Below are positions 7,041 to 55,641 of a DNA stretch of 64,000 bases, piece by piece (the stretch's first letter is position 1; every line of letters starts with the position of its first letter). The DNA is from Candidatus Rifleibacteriota bacterium (lineage in GTDB: Bacteria; Muiribacteriota; Ozemobacteria; Ozemobacterales; Ozemobacteraceae). The stretch lies in the NCBI GenBank assembly GCA_012520995.1, contig JAAYNI010000049.1, forward strand, positions 1 through 64,000, written 5' to 3'. The notes below the pieces were generated by a model. It saw nothing but the letters and a program-made list of their open reading frames with translations. It was not told the origin of the DNA and did not search any database. Made by a program: the position numbers and the translations under genes.

Positions 7041-9266
7041 ATGGTTATAAATAAAATGAAACAGCAAAAATTTACTATAACCGGCATGAGCTGTGCAGGG
7101 TGTGCAGCAAATGTAGAAAAAACCGTTTTAGCTCTTGATGGCATCAAATCCGCAGCAGTAAATTTGATGCTGGGCAAGCTGTCAGCAGAATATGATTCTC
7201 AAAAACTTTCCGCAGAGAAAATAGCCGAATCAGTGCAAAAACTCGGTTTCGGTGTAACAGTCGACGAGGAAGAGAAACAAGCGACAATCCGCGAAGAACA
7301 ATCTGAAGAAACCGGCATATTATTAAAAAGACTAAAGCAATCTGCAGTCTTCTCCATTTTACTGATGCTCGTTTCCATGTTGCCGGAATCTATATTGCCA
7401 ATATCAACTATAGCAAACGGGTTTATTCAGCTTTTATTGCTGATTCCTATATTATTCATAAACAGAGCTTATCTGACAAAAGGCTTCAAATCCCTTATCA
7501 AAGGTTCGCCCGACATGAATTCTCTGATAATGCTGGGTTCCGCCGCTTCCCTGTTCTACGGTTTATCTGTTCTTTTAAAAAACATCTTCGGAGATCCTGC
7601 TCTGCCAAAGCAAACTGCCTACTTTTTTGATTCGGCGGGCATGATTCTGGTCATAGTTACTTTGGGCAAATACATTGAAGGCAGATCGAAAGCTTCAGCA
7701 ACATCTGCCATAGAAAAACTCATAAAGTTAGCTCCTGACACGGCCATAATAGAAATTGACGGAGAAGAAAAAGAAATAGCCGCATCAGCTTTGAAACCAG
7801 GCGACATAATAATAGTCAAAGCCGGCAGCGCTGTTCCCATTGACGGAATAGTCTATGAAGGCAACGCCTCTATGGATCAGTCTGCAATAACAGGCGAAAG
7901 TATTCCGGTTTTCAAGCAAAAAGGCGACCAAATCTTCTCCGCTACGACAAACGTAAACGGATACATAAAAGTTCAAGCGGTCAATGTTGGCAAAGACACT
8001 GCTCTTGCCAAAATCATAGACTTAGTCGAAAACGCTTCTTATACGAAAGCCCCTATAGGAAGATTAGCAGATAAAATCAGCGGCATATTTGTCCCGATTG
8101 TTCTTCTCCTGGCTCTCATCACCTTTACAACTTGGCTTCTCAAATCAGTCCCCTTTGATATTGCTTTAATGCGAGCAGTTGCCGTACTTTTGGTCTCATG
8201 CCCTTGCGCCATGGGGCTAGCTACGCCAGTAGCCACTATGTACGGAACTTCAAAAGCAGCATTCTCGGGAATACTGATTAAGTCAGCTCAAGACTTGGAA
8301 TCCTTGGCTCACGCTGAAACAGTCATTCTGGATAAAACAGGTACAATCACCGAAGGCAAGCCAGCAGTCACAGATATAATAGTCGCTGACAATACTTACA
8401 ACCAAGACTCTTTTTTAGCTCTTGCAGCCTCTCTGGAAAAACTTTCGGGCCACCCCTTGGCATCAGCTGTTTTGAATGAAGCCGAAAAACGTTCTCTCAA
8501 ACTTGAAGAAGCCGAAGACCTCAAACTCTGGGCAGGGCAAGGCATTTCAGGCAAAATAATCGGCTCTGAAATTATTGCCGGCAACAAATCCTATATGGAC
8601 AATTCATCGGTAGAGCTCGGAGAATATGCTCAAACAGCCGAAAAGCTTGCCAAAGAAGGCAAAACCCCCTTGTTCTTTGCAAAAGAAAATAAGCTTTGCG
8701 GCATTATAGCAGTTGCGGATCCCATCAAAGAAAACAGTATAAAAGCTGTTGAGATGATGAAAGAAATGGGCTTGGAAACAATCATGCTTACTGGCGACAG
8801 CAAAATAACAGCAGAAGCGATAGGCAAACAGGTGAAAACCGACAAAATTATTGCAGAAATCCTCCCTGAGGGCAAAGAAGCTGAAGTCAGAAAACATATG
8901 AAATCAGGCAAAACCACAGTCGTTATAGGAGACGGCATAAACGACGCCCCCGCCTTGACAGCTGCCGATGTCGGAATAGCGGTCGGAGCCGGCAGCGACA
9001 TAGCCATTGACTCGGCAGATATTGTGCTTGTAAAAAGCGATCTTGGCGATGCAGTGACTGCAATTAAAATCGGGAAAGCTGTCATAAAGACAATAAAACA
9101 AAACCTGGCTTGGGCTTTTTCATATAACTTTATTATGCTGCCTGTAGCCGCAGGGGTTTTCTCAAGCTTCGGCATTGAGCTCAACCCTATGCTCGCATCA
9201 GCTCTCATGGCTATGAGTTCTATTACTGTGGTGTTCAACTCCGCACGACTTAAAAACAGCCACTAG
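7041..9266 (+). CDS. copA: Copper-type P1B ATPase
   Basis: HMA domain GMSCAGCAANVEK, SCPCAMGLATP, DKTGT, GDGINDAPAL; start may be 7059. Confidence 0.95.
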   Translation: MVINKMKQQKFTITGMSCAGCAANVEKTVLALDGIKSAAVNLMLGKLSAEYDSQKLSAEKIAESVQKLGFGVTVDEEEKQATIREEQSEETGILLKRLKQSAVFSILLMLVSMLPESILPISTIANGFIQLLLLIPILFINRAYLTKGFKSLIKGSPDMNSLIMLGSAASLFYGLSVLLKNIFGDPALPKQTAYFFDSAGMILVIVTLGKYIEGRSKASATSAIEKLIKLAPDTAIIEIDGEEKEIAASALKPGDIIIVKAGSAVPIDGIVYEGNASMDQSAITGESIPVFKQKGDQIFSATTNVNGYIKVQAVNVGKDTALAKIIDLVENASYTKAPIGRLADKISGIFVPIVLLLALITFTTWLLKSVPFDIALMRAVAVLLVSCPCAMGLATPVATMYGTSKAAFSGILIKSAQDLESLAHAETVILDKTGTITEGKPAVTDIIVADNTYNQDSFLALAASLEKLSGHPLASAVLNEAEKRSLKLEEAEDLKLWAGQGISGKIIGSEIIAGNKSYMDNSSVELGEYAQTAEKLAKEGKTPLFFAKENKLCGIIAVADPIKENSIKAVEMMKEMGLETIMLTGDSKITAEAIGKQVKTDKIIAEILPEGKEAEVRKHMKSGKTTVVIGDGINDAPALTAADVGIAVGAGSDIAIDSADIVLVKSDLGDAVTAIKIGKAVIKTIKQNLAWAFSYNFIMLPVAAGVFSSFGIELNPMLASALMAMSSITVVFNSARLKNSH

Positions 9267-9460
9267 TGCTCAGTGGGCGGTGGACAAGTGGGATTGTTTA
9301 GACTCAATCGCTAAAACTGACAACTGCTTTAAGATGCTAATTAACAGATGAAACTTTTAGGTCTGAAAAACAGAATAAAAATTCAAAAACTATATTTGAT
9401 AATCAACTTTTAGGTGCAATTGAAATGGGCAGCAAACAGGATAAAAAGGACACAAACGTA

Positions 9461-12112: not shown

Positions 12113-12140
12113 AAATTTAACTCGTCACCCGCCACTCGTC

Positions 12141-12228
12141 ACGGTGCGATCTTAGCAGCTGCCAACAATGATTCGTTGTAAATCAAGATGTCTGGAAAAA
12201 GGAATTTTTAGCTGCAACACAGCATTAA
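12141..12228 (-). repeat. Degenerate copy of the CTAGTGC/GCACTAG MITE-like element
   Basis: GGTGCGATCTTAGCAG...TTTTTAGCTGCAACACAGCATTA resembles 24102-24189. Confidence 0.5.
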
Positions 12229-16819: not shown

Positions 16820-16913
16820 CTCTAGTGCTTTGTTGCAGCTAATACTTCTCTGCTTGATGACAAGCAAGACAACAAATTATTCATGGTTATTTGATGCAAC
16901 AATCGCACTAGAG
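16820..16913 (+). mobile_element. MITE-like element, 94 bp, with terminal inverted repeats CTCTAGTGC...GCACTAGAG
   Basis: CTCTAGTGCTTTGTTGCA...TGCAACAATCGCACTAGAG; close copy at 36725-36820. Confidence 0.65.
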
Positions 16914-16939
16914 GGAGTAGGGCGTAGGGGGGTAGAGGG
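16913..16939 (+). other. Putative G-quadruplex motif
   Basis: GGGAGTAGGGCGTAGGGGGGTAGAGGG. Confidence 0.65.
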
Positions 16940-17069
16940 TAGTGAAATACTTTTCAACTCGCATTACAGCCAACGACTGCTTTAAGATATTATTAAATGG
17001 TTAAAACTTTAAGATAAAAAAACAGAGAACCAAAGCATAAAATAAATTCTTCTTCTCCAAGAGAAAGAT

Positions 17070-18080
17070 TTAATTACAACAGTTCAGCACTTCAGCAATT
17101 TGCTTTGCAATAAGCTGCAACACATCTACCACCACAGAATTTCCGAGCTGTTTATAAGCTTGATTGTCACTTGGATGTAATTTGTAGCTGTCCGGAAATC
17201 CCATAAGCCTTGCACATTCACGAGGATGAAGCTTTCTGGTTTTGCCATCTATCAGGTAACCGCCTGTTTTAGAAAAAACGCCTCCGCCATAGGCCGAGAG
17301 GGTTACAGCAATACCTTTCGGCGAATAAATTCTTTCGCCTTGCCCGCCCTTACCTACCGTTCCCACGCGTATTGTTGAGCGGGAATTGCGAGTCACTGAA
17401 GCCTTATCATTTAACACTAGGTCATCTCGTTCAACAATGAGGCTTTTCACCTCATCGTTTGGCAATAAAAAATCTTCCAAGTATCTGTTTAATTCAAAGG
17501 GTTCAGGAAAAGAAAAGGTTCCTATTTTAAGATCTTTGCTAAAGCAGACCATATATATGCGTTCCCTTTTCTGTGGAATGCCGTAATTCAGAGAACTTAG
17601 CACAGCGCTGTCGAAGCTGTATTCTAATTCAATAAATGTATTTTTTACAATTTCCAATGTATTGCCATTATCGTGAGCAGCGAAGTTTTTAACATTTTCT
17701 AAAAAAACGACAGAAGGCCTTTTTTCTTTTACAATTCTTGCCACATCAAAGAACAGGGTACCTCTGCTGTCATCAAAACCTTTCTGTTTACCGCTGATTG
17801 AAAAGGCTTGGCAGGGAAAGCCGGCACATAAAATATCGTGGACGGGAATATCTTTTTCATCTACTTGAGTTATATCGCCATCAGGCATATCGCCAAAATT
17901 TATGCGGTATGTTTGCTGAGCATGCCTATCCCATTCGCTGGAGTAAACGCATTTTGCTCCGAAAGATTCGAGCGCAAGCCTGAATCCGCCCATCCCGGCA
18001 AATAAATCTATAAAGGTATATCCTCTTAATGTTTTGTCTTTTATTTCAATCATGTTTTCTTCTAACTTTTTCAGATTCAA
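17070..18080 (-). CDS. DNA (cytosine-5-)-methyltransferase
   Basis: DLFAGMGGFRLAL, GFPCQAFS, ENVKNF, RECARLMGFPDSY motifs. Confidence 0.95.
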   Translation of the reverse strand: MNLKKLEENMIEIKDKTLRGYTFIDLFAGMGGFRLALESFGAKCVYSSEWDRHAQQTYRINFGDMPDGDITQVDEKDIPVHDILCAGFPCQAFSISGKQKGFDDSRGTLFFDVARIVKEKRPSVVFLENVKNFAAHDNGNTLEIVKNTFIELEYSFDSAVLSSLNYGIPQKRERIYMVCFSKDLKIGTFSFPEPFELNRYLEDFLLPNDEVKSLIVERDDLVLNDKASVTRNSRSTIRVGTVGKGGQGERIYSPKGIAVTLSAYGGGVFSKTGGYLIDGKTRKLHPRECARLMGFPDSYKLHPSDNQAYKQLGNSVVVDVLQLIAKQIAEVLNCCN

Positions 18081-19971: not shown

Positions 19972-20049
19972 CAAATATAAAGACCAAGAACCTTTTTTGG
20001 GTCCGGATCACACAGAGCAATAAACAGAACTGCTTATTTTCAGAATTTG

Positions 20050-20472
20050 CTAAATCTCGTTCGTGTCATTCAAAATTATATTAAGCATTTCCCTTGGGGT
20101 AACTATATAAGGAGTCTGCGGAAAATGCTTGATATTTCCTGTCACTAAGTAGGCTTCATTCTGTTTTCTGTCGCTCATAAGTATTTGATAGAAAACAAGA
20201 TCGTCAGGATCAGGCAAATTTATTCTTAAGGGCTCTTCTTCTATAAAAACTGAATAACAGCGAAATTCGTCTATGATATCTTTCACAATCTCTGAGGCAA
20301 GACGAAACTTTGGACGTAAAAGCACTTCCTCATATTCTGTTAGAATTTTATCATTCAGCAAAGGGATAATTATATTATTAAATGCCAAGTCAACAATGCT
20401 TCCTGGTACAGAGTCGCGTTTTATGACTGCTGAAACCAGAACATTGGTATCAATGACAGCTCGGTATTTCAA
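20050..20472 (-). CDS. PIN-domain toxin (VapC-like)
   Basis: AVIDTNVLVSA, LPDPDDLVFYQI, YLVTGNIKHF. Confidence 0.9.
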   Translation of the reverse strand: MKYRAVIDTNVLVSAVIKRDSVPGSIVDLAFNNIIIPLLNDKILTEYEEVLLRPKFRLASEIVKDIIDEFRCYSVFIEEEPLRINLPDPDDLVFYQILMSDRKQNEAYLVTGNIKHFPQTPYIVTPREMLNIILNDTNEI

Positions 20473-20759: not shown

Positions 20760-21161
20760 AATGAGTGACCTCCAAGAGATTCTTCTTTCATTTTACTTAA
20801 AAAATCATAAGTCATCAATTGATTTTTATTCAGCCACGAAACACACCGTAAGAGGCAATGACGTGTGGCGTGTGGCGGGTGGCGAGTGGAATTGGTTAGA
20901 ACTAAATTGCTGAAACTGATAACTGTTTAGTAAGTCATAATAAATGACTGTAATCTTAATTTTACACAGAAACATCCATTTTTACATTTTACACTATCCA
21001 TGTTTCATTATTTAGAATTCGCAGATGACGCAGATAAGCACAGATTTTTCTTTAATTCTCTAGTTTTCTCTTTATTTATCTTGTCTAAATTTATTAAGAA
21101 GGACACGAAATTGCTCAATAAGAAAATCTGAGGTACAATTAGGCAAGTTAAGGAGACTCAT

Positions 21162-21733: not shown

Positions 21734-21775
21734 TTGCTAAATCTCATTCGTGTCATTCAAAATTATTTTAAGCAT
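21734..21775 (-). repeat. Duplicate of the 3' end of the PIN toxin gene (20047-20088)
   Basis: ttgctaaatctcattcgtgtcattcaaaattattttaagcat; encodes MLKIILNDTNEI* versus MLNIILNDTNEI*. Confidence 0.85.
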
Positions 21776-21861
21776 AAAAAGTCGGAGAAAATAAAAAAAT
21801 CTGTTCTTTTTTCCGTGTGTTCCGTGTGTTCTGTGGTTTAGAAATTTCTGTGGTTTTGTGC

Positions 21862-23847: not shown

Positions 23848-24101
23848 TTAGAACTCCAGAACCACAAAATTTTTCGAACCACGAAACACACGAAAGGTGC
23901 GAAAAAGAACCACATACATTTATTAAACCACAGAACACACAGAATACACGGAAAAAGAAAGAACTGATATTTTTTTATTTGCTAGATTTTCTTCGTTTTT
24001 TGTATCTATTTTAAATCTGAAAGTTTTAGTTATTTATCAGCATCTCTAAGCAGTTTTTGGCTGTAATATTTAGTCTAAACAATTCAACTCGCCACTCGCC
24101 A

Positions 24102-24189
24102 CTCTAGTGCGATGCATACTTTTTAGCAGATATTGTTTTGTGAATTTTGAAAGGCTAGCAGGAAAGTTTTAGCTGCAATCCAGCACTAA
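24102..24189 (-). mobile_element. MITE-like element copy
   Basis: CTCTAGTGCGATGCAT...TAGCTGCAATCCAGCACTAA; overlaps the stop codon of 24186..25781. Confidence 0.6.
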
Positions 24190-25781
24190 TCAGCTTGTTT
24201 GTAGAGCGTTTTGCCATCAGTTTCGGTTCTGGTCAGAATTCCAGCTCGAACTAGCCCAGCTAGAACCTTTTGAAGCTTCTTTCTGGACATTCCGGTTTCT
24301 TGCAAAAGCGTATCAAAGTCTTTTACAGCATTTCTTCCGAGAGCTGATTGAGCTTTATAAGCGTCATCCAGCTTCAATGCCTCAGAGATTTTTTTGAATT
24401 CCGCCCTGCCCTCTTTGAGCGTCACGGTTCGACAATAAACTCCTTTTGAGTTTTTTCGCCCTTCAGAAGCTTCAAACAAAGCATCAAATTCAGCCTTAAA
24501 CCTTCTAATGACATCTGCATGGCCTTCAAAAGCCCCATTAAAGAATACTAAATTCTCGTAATTTATGTATTCAGCCGAGTTGGACCAGTTATAGCTGCCT
24601 ACTATCATTTCAGAGTCATTTACCGTGATATTCTTATGGTGCCAAAATTTGCTGAGATAGCTCAGAAGCTCTGTTTTTCCTGTTTCAGGATTATAAGAAT
24701 AGGCATTTTTTCTAAAACGGTAGCGTATTTCGATGTTTTCAATACCGAGTCTTTCAGCCTCGCTTTCAAGCCAAGGAGCAAGTTTGCTTTCATCCGGGTT
24801 TTCATCGTGCATTTGAGCATGATCTAACAGAATGCGGAATTTCGCTTCCGGATATCTCTTAGCTTGAGCCAGCAGAGCTTGTGCCAGCTCTGGTCTTGTA
24901 AAACTGAACATGCCCAAATCAAGGGAAGTTTCGGTTCTTGAAATCAGCTCCATAATCTTGGAGTCAAGCCTGGTTTGAGAGAGCTCGTTTTCCGGCTCGG
25001 AATTGAAATAAATCGAAGCGTAGCCAGGCACAGGAGAAGCCTCGATATATTTTTCAGGTTTCTTTTCGCCCAGCAAAGGCTCGCCGTATTCGTTCCAGAG
25101 TCTTGCGAATTCTTCAGCCAACTGCCTTGCGACTGCCGGCTGATCTTCAAAGAAGACCCTGTTTTCGCCGTATATTTGGTCTGAGGTTACAGATATGTTG
25201 GCGCTTCCGGAAAAGGAGTCGAATGGCACTTTGGTGCCTGGTTCATAGAAAATGCCGAACTTCTCGTGCATTGTACCCACTATCAAAGTGCCGTCATCTA
25301 GCAGATAACTGCGGCCATTTCGTATCATAAGGTCTTTTGAAACGCCGGCTATTATGAACTTGAAATCAACGCCTTCTGCTTCAGCTTTTTCTTTAGCCTC
25401 TGCAACCCTTGTAACTATTCTGGCAACGCTTTCGTTGGCCCAAGTTGTAACATTGTCCAAAAGAAGCCTTACTTCCACGTTTTTCTTGTAAGCCGCATCT
25501 ATCATAGCATCCAATGCGACAAAGTCGCTCATGGAATACATGGCTATTTTGGCCAAACTTCCCTCTTTCAAACTGTCAAATTTATGAATAATCGAGTTTG
25601 AAAGAGTCGCAGGAAGCCTTTCGCCATTCTGCAGAACGAGAGTTCTCGCATTGTTAATAGTCGCAAATCCGCCCAAGGGCCCGAAATAAATTCTCGTAGT
25701 TCCCGCGAAAGAAGGCAGGATCGCAGCAAGAATAAGACACAGAGACAAAAACAAGGTTTTAAAATGCTTTTTTAAACTCAC
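24186..25781 (-). CDS. Secreted phospholipase D-like protein
   Basis: Signal peptide; HKD-type HEKFG..GSANIS and [21 protein letters not shown]-terminal winged-helix-like. Confidence 0.85.
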
Positions 25782-28727: not shown

Positions 28728-29315
28728 ATGTTAATAGCAGGTCTCGGCAATCCAGGTAAAAAATACGAAAACACTAGGCATAATGCAGGCTTTAAAGCAG
28801 CAGACGCTCTTGCCTCTCACTTTGCTGCTTCTTTCAAGCAAGCTCCGAAACTCAAAGGTGCCCTAGCCTCTTTTGTTTACGGCGGAGAAAAGCACTATAT
28901 ACTGAAACCTGACACTTACATGAATCTCTCAGGAGACTCAATAGCTCTTGTTATGAACTACTATAAAATCTCTCCGTCAGAGCTTTTAACTATCACGGAT
29001 GATATCAGCTTGCCTGTAGGCAAAGTTCGTATAAGAGAAAGCGGCAGCGCTGGCGGGCACAATGGTTTGAAGTCTGTAATATCGCACTTGGGCTCTAATT
29101 TTGCAAGAATACGTATAGGAGTAGATCAGCCTGTCTTTCCTGACAAAGGTTTGCATCCTGAGAAAATGATAAATCATGTCCTTGGAGATTTTTCCAAGCA
29201 AGACAACGAAGTCCTGGAAACAGTGTACAACGACCTACCCGCAGCTGTCAGACTGATATTAGAGGGCAAAATTTTGGACGCGATGACTGTTTACAACGCG
29301 AAAAACTACACTTGA
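28728..29315 (+). CDS. pth: Peptidyl-tRNA hydrolase
   Basis: MLIAGLGNPGKKYENTRHNAGF, SAGGHNGLKS. Confidence 0.97.
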   Translation: MLIAGLGNPGKKYENTRHNAGFKAADALASHFAASFKQAPKLKGALASFVYGGEKHYILKPDTYMNLSGDSIALVMNYYKISPSELLTITDDISLPVGKVRIRESGSAGGHNGLKSVISHLGSNFARIRIGVDQPVFPDKGLHPEKMINHVLGDFSKQDNEVLETVYNDLPAAVRLILEGKILDAMTVYNAKNYT

Positions 29316-29399
29316 AACCACAGAAAAGACCGAGAACATTTCTAAACCACGGAACACACAGAATACACAGATATGATTTTTAAGCATAGCTTAAAATCA

Positions 29400-29510: not shown

Positions 29511-29539
29511 GGGAGTAGGGCGTAGGGAGTGGGGGGGGG
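29511..29539 (+). other. Putative G-quadruplex motif
   Basis: GGGAGTAGGGCGTAGGGAGTGGGGGGGGG. Confidence 0.7.
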
Positions 29540-29691
29540 CGAGGACCAAATATCCAAGACAGAAAACCAAAAACTCCAAAAAGCTTTCTTTGCCACAGAA
29601 CACACGGAACACACTGACATGGGTTAAAAATTACAGAAGTAATGGCAAAGCAGTTATCAGTTTCAGCGATTGAGTCTGGTTCACCGCTACT

Positions 29692-30859: not shown

Positions 30860-31093
30860 CAAACAGCGGACAGAACAAAAAGCTGGTGATGAGTGGCGAG
30901 TTGAATGTTTGGAACTCAATCGCTGAATCCAATAAACGCTTTGAGACGCTAATAAATATATATTGTTTATTTTTTGTGGTTCTGCCTGTGCTTTGTTTTT
31001 CGCCACCCCCGCCGACTAGACCCTACTCTCTGACTTTAAGCTATACCCTCCTTTGTGTAATCTGCGAATAATTTTCTCTTCTTTAAAATTTGA

Positions 31094-34970: not shown

Positions 34971-35231
34971 ATGGAAATACTGAGAGTTGCATCATCTTCA
35001 AGCCCCAAGTCAGTAGCTGGCGCAATAGCAGCAGTTATAGAGCAAGACGGAAAAGTTGTCCTTCTTGCTGTAGGAGCTGGCGCTGTTAATCAAGCTGTTA
35101 AATCCATCGCCGTAACTAGAGGCTACGTAGCTCCTAAAGGCATAGATCTTTCTACCATGATTGCTTTCGCCAAGATAGATATAGACGGCAACGAAAAAAC
35201 TGCGATCAAATTCCTTGTTGAAGCTCAGTAA
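34971..35231 (+). CDS. spoVS: Stage V sporulation protein S
   Basis: MEILRVASSSSPKSVAGAIAAVI...GAGAVNQAVKSIAVTRGYVAP. Confidence 0.95.
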   Translation: MEILRVASSSSPKSVAGAIAAVIEQDGKVVLLAVGAGAVNQAVKSIAVTRGYVAPKGIDLSTMIAFAKIDIDGNEKTAIKFLVEAQ

Positions 35232-36717
35232 AAAGTTTTACCGAAAATTTAAGGCTAAAAAAGACCTTTTGATGCTGGCGCTTATAATAAGCGTCAGCTT
35301 TTCAGTGCCTTTGTTAGCTCAAACAAGCGAAGTATTAAAATACCAGAAACAAATTTTAGACAACCCGAAAGATGTCGCAGCTCATCTTCGCCTTGCTTTA
35401 GCCTATACGATGGAGAAGAACTATGTGGGAGCTGTGCGTTCTTACTTTGATGTTTTAAAACTTGAACCGGATAACTTCCACGCTTACAACAATCTGGGCA
35501 TACTTTATAAACAAAGCGGGCAATATCAAGACAGCATCCAATGTTACCTGCAAGCTCAACGCCTAAACCCAGACTCATATTGGGTACCATATAACATGGG
35601 CTTATGCTACGAAGCCATGCTTCAATTCAACAACGCGAAAGAGTCATATGGCAGAGCCCTTTCATTAAATCCCTCTTTTACCCAAGCCCTCAATCGCCTC
35701 CGAGTGCTTAACGACCCAAACTTCGACGGCAGAGTAGCCAACTTGCCTCCCATAAGCGCAGTTCCGGAACAGCCTCAAACTCCTGTACAGGCAACTCAAC
35801 AAATGACAATTGCCACAAGTTATACTCAGAAAACTTCTAGACCTGTACAAGAGACAAAACCCGCTCAAACACAACAAATACAGAAAAAAACTCCTGCAGA
35901 ACCCAAAAAACAAGAAAAAATCTTCCGTTTCACATCAAAAACCTCCGCAGCAGCTAAAATTTTTAACCAGGCAATGGAAGCTTTTAAAACTGACGACATG
36001 CCCTTGGCCATTCAGCTATATGTAACAGCTGTCACGTCAGAACCGCCTCTTCTAAGCGAATCTGATAACGGCTTAATCAAAGCTGCACTTACTTATCTTA
36101 AAGACCGCCCTAATCGCATCACAAATGGTCTTTATTACCGAGGCATGCTGATACATTTCTCCGGCTATACAGAGCTGGCTGTCGTAGACCTTAGAAGTTA
36201 TACGGCTACCCACGTTGAAGGTGAAAATCAATTCACAGAGCAATTCTTAAAAGAAGCCCAAAAAATACTAGACGTTTATGACCAAGAGCAGGCTCAAATA
36301 GCTGCAATCAAGGAAGAAAAGAGATTGAGAAGGCTTCAAGAACAGGAAGAGCGTGCTGCTATGGAAGCAGCGAAAAAGAAAGCTGAACAAGAAAGCTCTG
36401 CTCCAAGCTCATATACAGCTAAGCGAATGTCTGAGGATGAGATCCTTTATGAAGGCGACAAACTTTTACGAGAAACAAAACATGCTCAAGCTATTGAAGT
36501 TTTAAAAATCGGCTTAAGAAACTACCCTGACAGCATACCACTGCTTTCCAAAACAGCAACAGCCTACTCCGATCTTTTCTTGATTTACAGCGATCAGCAA
36601 GCAGGAAATGAAGCTGTTAAAATCTATCAGGAAATAGTCGACAAGGCTCCTTCAAGTTCCAATGAAAAAGCTATAGCCGAAGAAATGCTCAGAGAGTTGA
36701 GCAGGAGAATACGCTAA
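35215..36717 (+). CDS. TPR-repeat protein (start may be ATG 35272)
   Basis: NFHAYNNLGILYKQSGQYQDSIQCYLQAQRLNPDSYWVPYNMGLCYEA. Confidence 0.8.
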   Translation: MLKLSKKFYRKFKAKKDLLMLALIISVSFSVPLLAQTSEVLKYQKQILDNPKDVAAHLRLALAYTMEKNYVGAVRSYFDVLKLEPDNFHAYNNLGILYKQSGQYQDSIQCYLQAQRLNPDSYWVPYNMGLCYEAMLQFNNAKESYGRALSLNPSFTQALNRLRVLNDPNFDGRVANLPPISAVPEQPQTPVQATQQMTIATSYTQKTSRPVQETKPAQTQQIQKKTPAEPKKQEKIFRFTSKTSAAAKIFNQAMEAFKTDDMPLAIQLYVTAVTSEPPLLSESDNGLIKAALTYLKDRPNRITNGLYYRGMLIHFSGYTELAVVDLRSYTATHVEGENQFTEQFLKEAQKILDVYDQEQAQIAAIKEEKRLRRLQEQEERAAMEAAKKKAEQESSAPSSYTAKRMSEDEILYEGDKLLRETKHAQAIEVLKIGLRNYPDSIPLLSKTATAYSDLFLIYSDQQAGNEAVKIYQEIVDKAPSSSNEKAIAEEMLRELSRRIR

Positions 36718-36724
36718 CACTAAA

Positions 36725-36820
36725 CTAGCGCTTTGTTACACCTAATACTTCTCTGTTCAATGACAAGCAGTCAACATGGACTATTCATGGTTATTTGATG
36801 CAGCCGCCGCCGCACTATAG
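36725..36820 (+). mobile_element. MITE-like element copy
   Basis: CTAGCGCTTTGTTACACCTAATACTTCTCTG...ATTCATGGTTATTTGATGCA...GCACTATAG; nearly collinear with 16820-16913. Confidence 0.65.
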
Positions 36821-37108
36821 GGCGTAGGGCGTGGGGGGTGGAATTGTTTAGACTCAATTGCTGAAACTGATAATTGCTTTGAGATGCTAATAAATATACG
36901 TTGTTTATTTTTTTAGGTTTTGGCGAACATCATTCCTTTCTCATCACGCACCACCTGCCACTCATCACTGGCTGTTCGTTGCCCTCTCTACCCACTATCC
37001 ACTAATCCCTTGCCACTGTTTTTAGGTCTCTGTCCTTAATCAGAGGCTAGGTCAAAAATTGTGATTATGCGATAATAAAGTATGGCTTTGCTTTTTGATT
37101 TTGCTACT

Positions 37109-41875: not shown

Positions 41876-41966
41876 CTAGTGCTGTGTTGCAGGTACAAGC
41901 AGCCTGTTTAATGCCAAACGAGCCAACAAAGTCTTTATGCTTTCTGATACTGCAGCTGCACTAGAG
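41876..41966 (+). mobile_element. MITE-like element copy
   Basis: CTAGTGCTGTGTTGCAGG...CTGCAGCTGCACTAGAG. Confidence 0.6.
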
Positions 41967-42329
41967 CAACGAGTGGTGCGTGGCAAGTGGCGAGTTAATT
42001 GTTTAGACTCAAATTGCTGAAACTGACAATTACTCTAAGCAGCTAATAAAGAGCTGAAGCTCTGATAAAAAAACACATCTTGATAATGCTTATATGCTAT
42101 AAATGAAAAGAAAATATTGCAAATTGCCCTTTCTACCCACTACCCACTGTTGCTAGCTATCTGTTCTTAATCAGAGGCTAGGACAAAAATTGAGATTATG
42201 CGGCAGCAGAATGCAATTTTTGACCAATTTTGCCCTCATCTGTGTGAATCTGTGTCCATCTGCGGATAGAAAAAAAATCTGTTCGATAATAAACATTTAG
42301 ATAAAACGAACTAATAGGCGAAAAGAAAC

Positions 42330-55384: not shown

Positions 55385-55641
55385 CAACATCTAGTAGTCT
55401 GTAAGATCTAAAGCTTTTTTCTATCCACAGATTACACAGATTTTCATTTGATAATAAATTAGCAATGTGTTTTCTCTTGATTTATTCCATATAAGTATTA
55501 TCAGGATTTTTTTTGAAATATGTGAGTTTCAGCTATTTATCAGCATCTTAAAGCAGTTGTTGGCTGAGTAATATTGAGTTGCTAAACAATTTTACTACTC
55601 CCCTCACCCTACCCTCTATCTCCATGATTTTTAAGCTTTGC

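Follow-up and report, generated by a model that had tools for sequence, protein, structure and literature searches.

The intergenic DNA that begins at position 16822 of the window raises the question of what kind of repeat it represents. A sequence-only reading had proposed a defined element family in which a MITE-like unit (here unit A), a variable G-rich tract and a conserved block (block B) follow one another in fixed order. The window is the whole stretch of 64,000 nucleotides that was analysed (bases 1-64000 of contig C8), from a 2.84 Mb assembly of 101 contigs with an estimated completeness of 96%. Copies were located with two profiles, R1 for unit A (90 positions) and R2 for block B (73 positions), and with an HMM of the full element (262 model positions), and those in the window are as follows.

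16822-16911, + strand: A unit of the reference copy (CTAGTGC...GCACTAG), 90 bp, alignment A1; R1 E = 2.8e-22
16912-16946, + strand: G-rich heptanucleotide tract of the reference copy, AGGGAGTAGGGCGTAGGGGGGTAGAGGGTAGTG
16947-17015, + strand: block B of the reference copy; R2 match 16952-17015, E = 8e-12; HMM
17016-17095, + strand: right part of the reference copy with a degenerate right terminal repeat (AATTACAACAGTTCAGCACTTCAG); exact right boundary putative
36725-36818, + strand: A unit of the second copy; R1 E = 6.3e-19
36819-36841, + strand: heptad tract of the second copy
36842-36907, + strand: block B of the second copy; R2 E = 1.1e-15
41876-41964, + strand: A unit of the third copy; R1 E = 3.9e-16
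41965-41996, + strand: heptad tract of the third copy, GAGTGGC dialect
41997-42066, + strand: block B of the third copy; R2 E = 6.8e-15
42292-42317, + strand: candidate right terminal repeat AACATTTAGATAAAACGAACTAATAG of the third copy, weak PWM score of 13.1; the element would be 41876-42317, 442 bp
24104-24189, - strand: A unit of the reversed copy; R1 E = 6.8e-11
24085-24103, - strand: heptad tract of the reversed copy, AGTGGCGAGTGGCGAGTTG
24012-24084, - strand: block B of the reversed copy; R2 E = 1.4e-16
9263-9366, + strand: A-less copy, CTAGTGC followed by tract and B (B 9293-9366); R2 E = 1.8e-18
12122-12228, - strand: degenerate A unit and heptad tract; HMM match
20865-20962, + strand: tract and B without A (B 20890-20962); R2 E = 7.4e-10
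30888-30968, + strand: tract and B without A (B 30903-30968); R2 E = 1.0e-12
29646-29677, - strand: fragment of block B; R2 E = 2.8e-5
55514-55612, - strand: tract and B without A (B 55514-55591); R2 E = 4.5e-16

The best full-element HMM E-value within the window was 1.7e-56, and at the reference copy the match spans 16822-17085 (model positions 1-257 of 262). The four copies named in the sequence-only reading, each comprising A, tract and B, were all recovered (16822-17015, 36725-36907 and 41876-42066 on the + strand, 24012-24189 on the - strand). Its five partial copies also exist, as block B without a full unit A, though one further copy, a degenerate A with tract (12122-12228, - strand), had been missed.

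A complete element reads, in order, CTAG-terminal repeat, unit A, an array of the heptanucleotide GTRGNGN, block B, a variable right part and an inverted terminal repeat ending in CTAG. Unit A is MITE-like, about 90 bp long, and runs from CTAGTGCTnTGTTGCA (fuller left sequence CTAGTGCTnTGTTnCAnCTAAAACTT) to GCACTAG, while block B is typified by ATTGTTTAGACTCAATTGCTGAAACTGATAACTGCTTTGAGATGCTAATAAATAGCTGAAACTTT. The conserved block is not where the element stops: complete copies run on beyond B to the inverted left terminal repeat (...AACTTTTAGCTGCAACAAAGCACTAG) and finish in CTAG. CTAG is present at both ends of complete copies, and the boundaries have the consistent form CTAG-TIR ... TIR-CTAG. 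A recognisable right end was identified for 28 of 118 left ends, about a quarter. Complete elements are 77-572 bp long, commonly 240-350 bp. In common with MITEs, complete copies have matching inverted ends, and the family is short, non-coding, dispersed and of high copy number.

The right part may contain other dispersed repeats, for example of the CACAGAACACACAGAATACACAGA type. Together with its reverse complement, CACAGAACACACAGAATACACAGA forms a second dispersed repeat that is common in intergenic DNA and, in several elements, is also present within the right part; in the window it occurs at 139-242, 29285-29388, 29531-29634, 23924-23957 and 21788-21840. A 70-nt repeat with TTAATCAGAGGCTAGGTCAAAAATTGTGATTATGCG, found at 37002-37071 and 42133-42202 (83% identical), lies 3′ of block B in both window copies and is present at other loci too. 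Further repeats were observed in the surrounding DNA. A near-perfect 30-bp hairpin, GTCTCCGATTAAAAGAGCTTATTAGCAAAG / CTTTGCTAATAAGCTCTTTTAATCGAAGAC, occupies 264-325 (97% complementary, 2-nt loop), and a 42-nt direct repeat occurs at 20047-20088 and 21734-21775 (95% identical, 1.7 kb apart). About 200 bp 3′ of the element at locus L009 there is an inverted repeat, GAGGCTGTCCGAAAACT...AGTTTTCGGACAGCCTC, that resembles a separate MITE.

Genome-wide searches bear out a defined family rather than a handful of chance resemblances. When up to 2 mismatches are allowed, the terminal motif TAGTGCTNTGTTGCA has 113 matches in the genome versus 2 for a reversed control pattern, and profile matches give at least 150 copies of A and at least 150 of B in 2.84 Mb, both lower bounds. 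Six contigs (C23, C39, C51, C32, C79 and C90) end within or beside an element; the repeats probably break the assembly, so that the true copy number would be higher. The proposed order also holds. The coordinates of 143 A and 150 B matches give 51 same-strand pairs in which A precedes B by no more than 100 nt; only 2 other arrangements occur within that distance, in both of which a downstream B lies on the strand opposite to A, and B was never found upstream of A. In loci extracted around matches, A-before-B order prevails by 55 to 8. Only about one third of A copies are paired with B, and about one third of B copies with A, the remainder being solo, partial or next to variant blocks. The family is thus modular and partly decayed, and not one rigid unit.

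The G-rich tract had been described as simply variable, but it proved to be a phased, degenerate heptanucleotide array whose GTRGNGN dialects include GTAGGGN, GTAGTGG and GTGGCGA. Self-match within tracts is 0.68 at lag 7 and 0.64 at lag 14, with other lags at 0.23-0.37; shuffled tracts at lag 7 give a mean of 0.345 and a maximum of 0.38. The lengths of the A-to-B gaps follow 7-bp steps (chi-square p = 0.0013), and the window holds 11 heptad runs versus 0.2 expected under a first-order Markov control. Of the earlier picture of conserved flanks around a fast-changing core, the flanks stood and the contrast shrank: across 13 close copy pairs, mean identity is 0.88 for A, 0.91 for B and 0.83 for the tract. 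The tract is slightly more divergent than its flanks in such pairs, and the differences are whole units or single Gs. Replication slippage, which would add or remove 7-bp units and single Gs, is the simplest way for the array to change.

The least expected feature of the family is that its CTAG ends serve as stop codons. Among 135 intact left ends, 93 have a neighbouring ORF that points its 3′ end at the element, and in 51 of these the ORF takes its stop codon from the TAG within the terminal CTAG; the other two frames through the left end, which extend into the element, account for only about 4 cases. Left ends concentrate between 3 nt inside and about 8 nt past stop codons: 51 coincide with the stop, about 21 lie at +1 to +8, and the next 110 nt hold about 9. 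Relative to a baseline drawn from loci picked around elements, with simple ORF calls, CTAG is a stop codon at 41 of 103 element ends versus 12 of 107 other CTAGs (non-coding only; odds ratio 5.2, p = 2.6e-6). In the sampled loci, 60 genes end in CTAG. An element lies at the end of 44 of them, and among the remaining 16 about 10 adjoin variant ends.

Several examples lie in the window. The stop codon of a PLD-family gene (24186-25781, - strand) is the element-end TAG at 24186-24188, and that of a P-type ATPase gene (7041-9266) falls within the CTAG at 9263-9266 of the A-less copy; the A unit at 36725 begins 8 nt past the stop codon of a TPR gene (35215-36717). The genes checked at element ends (SpoIIE, Peptidase_M23, Usp, UDG, Bac_transf, YgjP and DnaJ_C) are complete, with domains that reach or nearly reach the profile end near the stop codon. 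At the right end of the reference copy, the stop of a C-5 cytosine DNA methylase ORF (17070-18080, - strand) lies within the degenerate repeat at 17070-17095, and the final codons of this ORF appear to derive from the element.

At three loci (L019, L050 and L057) the element sits between convergent genes whose two stop codons are its two ends; at L050 the pair is a CYTH-domain gene and rsmG. When the flanks of these loci are joined at one CTAG, the convergent genes overlap by exactly 4 bases. Because such genes take both stops from the element, the simplest history, as read from the gene ends, is insertion at a CTAG with duplication of that CTAG, an IS5-type target. Neighbouring elements with a single CTAG in common (L007, L012, L015 and L026) are what insertion of a new copy into the end CTAG of an old one would produce. 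Right neighbours are gene 3′ ends in 51 of 104 cases, versus the 93 of 135 for left neighbours, a difference that we treat as an artefact of anchoring on the left end, since both ends of complete elements meet stop codons about equally. An active preference for insertion at stop codons, with gene termini as a chosen niche, would fit the clustering of left ends there but is distinctly unlikely; passive survival explains the double role of the CTAG ends.

Searches for Y1_Tnp, rve, DDE_Tnp_1 and DDE_5 in the genome, which also covered the suggestion that a transposase might share the element's ends, yielded no transposase with such ends. DDE_5 is absent. The sole rve gene belongs to an IS3-type element with different ends, the sole DDE_Tnp_1 gene to an IS5/IS427-type element with unrelated ends, and where terminal motifs face each other at a distance, the ORFs between them are ordinary genes. 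The parent transposon could be unbinned, extinct or lost, or from another transposase family. Since an autonomous transposon with the same ends was not found in the genome among the families searched, we file the element as MITE-like and not as a proven MITE.

The family also appears confined to this genome. The sequence-only reading had suggested a search of relatives; in 39 other genomes of the phylum, including 23 from its own family, no convincing copy of unit A was found (best E = 0.005). BLAST returned no element in 95 relatives, and plasmids and phages gave no match. The exact terminal pattern was likewise absent from genome and viral contig collections, in scans of a type that misses divergent copies. 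A related end type does exist in another family of the same phylum, where one genome (G030) carries about 17 MITEs of 109-111 bp (loci L229-L237). These have CTAG ends and terminal motifs TAGTGGTCTGTTGCA / CTAGTGGTCTGTTGCA, or close variants, near-identical to CTAGTGCTnTGTTGCA; some stand in tandem, and three adjacent pairs have one CTAG in common. The likeness lies in the terminal motif (CTAGTGGTCTGTTGCA against CTAGTGCTnTGTTGCA) and the CTAG shared by adjacent copies. The G030 MITE is, in contrast, a long near-perfect palindrome (fold z-score -10.6 for one copy) with an unrelated interior and no heptad tract in the loci examined, and its terminal pattern was absent from viral contigs. Because these MITEs have the ends without the tract, the CTAG end type appears to predate the composite element.

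We take the element to belong to a MITE-like family of composite DNA transposons that are non-autonomous, have by now decayed in part and are passively tolerated at stop codons, with a probability of roughly 0.78. An alternative is that A and tract-plus-B are two mobile elements and the composite a nested insertion, A preferring the CTAG on the tract side. Unit A does have two inverted ends of its own and occurs solo (L023 and L026), and there are A-less copies of tract and B, including one in which CTAG is followed directly by AGGGAGTAGGG (L013). CTAG is palindromic, however, so independent insertion should produce both orientations, and the same-strand excess of 51 pairs over 2 other arrangements speaks against it, as does the occurrence of several A subtypes that each precede tract and B; we consider this origin unlikely. 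REP/BIME-type repeats moved by a RAYT (Y1) transposase would also be small, intergenic, high-copy inverted repeats, and the tract contains GTAG tetranucleotides. Yet Y1_Tnp is absent from the genome, while the same search detects it in 5 control genomes, and in place of a tagged hairpin the element has long terminal inverted repeats with CTAG at both ends, which makes such an assignment barely tenable.

Could the host instead maintain the element at gene 3′ ends as a terminator, mRNA stabiliser or G-quadruplex switch under functional selection? The proximity to stop codons and the many left ends that face gene 3′ ends fit such a role, as do tracts that are G-rich on one strand, with a 3-tetrad G4 pattern in 8 of 50 and a 2-tetrad pattern in 29 of 50; G4-forming heptamers close to stop codons are known in Xanthomonas and Nostoc (PMC4692102). 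Nevertheless, neither conserved base pairing nor covarying RNA structure was found in A or B, the element has no Rfam match, and the terminator pattern was not found at the reference copy. Many copies are solo or decayed, and none occurs in the related genomes searched. Selection for a regulatory role is accordingly very unlikely, and no present-day cellular function would be needed to account for the element.

Under the transposon reading, a DDE transposase supplied in trans would recognise the terminal repeat and insert the element into CTAG, with a putative 4-bp duplication. Insertion at a gene's terminal CTAG would keep every stop, even for convergent genes that overlap by those 4 nt. CTAG carries TAG on both strands, and for this reason stop codons would stay intact and insertions survive.

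By its architecture, the element is best read as what may be a new variant among BOX/BrickBuilt-like modular MITEs. BrickBuilt of Porphyromonas gingivalis is described, in the passages cited here, as an intergenic MITE whose leader and tail segments enclose a 23-nt tandem repeat that varies in copy number; there are 19 copies of the element, up to 991 bp long, and it is restricted to its host and lacks its own transposase (PMC4596501). The architectures compare well: both elements are intergenic and host-restricted, have end segments around a tandem repeat, and come without a transposase. The present element differs in its 7-nt repeat, its at least 150 copies, and CTAG ends that act as stops; neither CTAG ends nor an overlap with stop codons is noted in those passages (PMC4596501). 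BOX elements of Streptococcus pneumoniae consist of modules of about 50 nt with predicted RNA stem-loops, and their over-representation between convergent genes has been read as parasitic tolerance (PMC3049150). They resemble our element in architecture as fixed-order composites with conserved end modules and a variable tandem middle, and are unlike it in that the latter has a heptad-array core and no conserved RNA structure was found in it (PMC3049150).

The tract itself recalls the G-quadruplex heptamer repeats GGGNATC and GGGGAYT of Xanthomonas and Nostoc, which are abundant intergenic G-rich arrays, often near stop codons; it departs from them in its degenerate GTRGNGN consensus and its place inside a larger element with terminal repeats (PMC4692102). 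IS5 duplicates YTAR, most commonly CTAG (PMC5493358), and the IS701 family duplicates exactly 4 bp of target (PMC2266710). The CTAG-type target and 4-bp duplication of the element, both putative, are similar, but a matching transposase or terminal repeat was not found in the genome. In the open-access literature we found no description of an element whose CTAG ends serve as stop codons, which is no proof of absence.

These findings unite, in one high-copy unit, a mobile element with inverted repeats and an array of G-rich heptanucleotides, which are usually treated separately. They also offer a simple, testable rule, whereby a palindromic CTAG target that carries a stop codon on both strands would allow a compact genome to be filled harmlessly. 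At the sampled loci, most genes with a terminal CTAG have an element there, and the repeat may in this way shape the stop-codon usage of the lineage.
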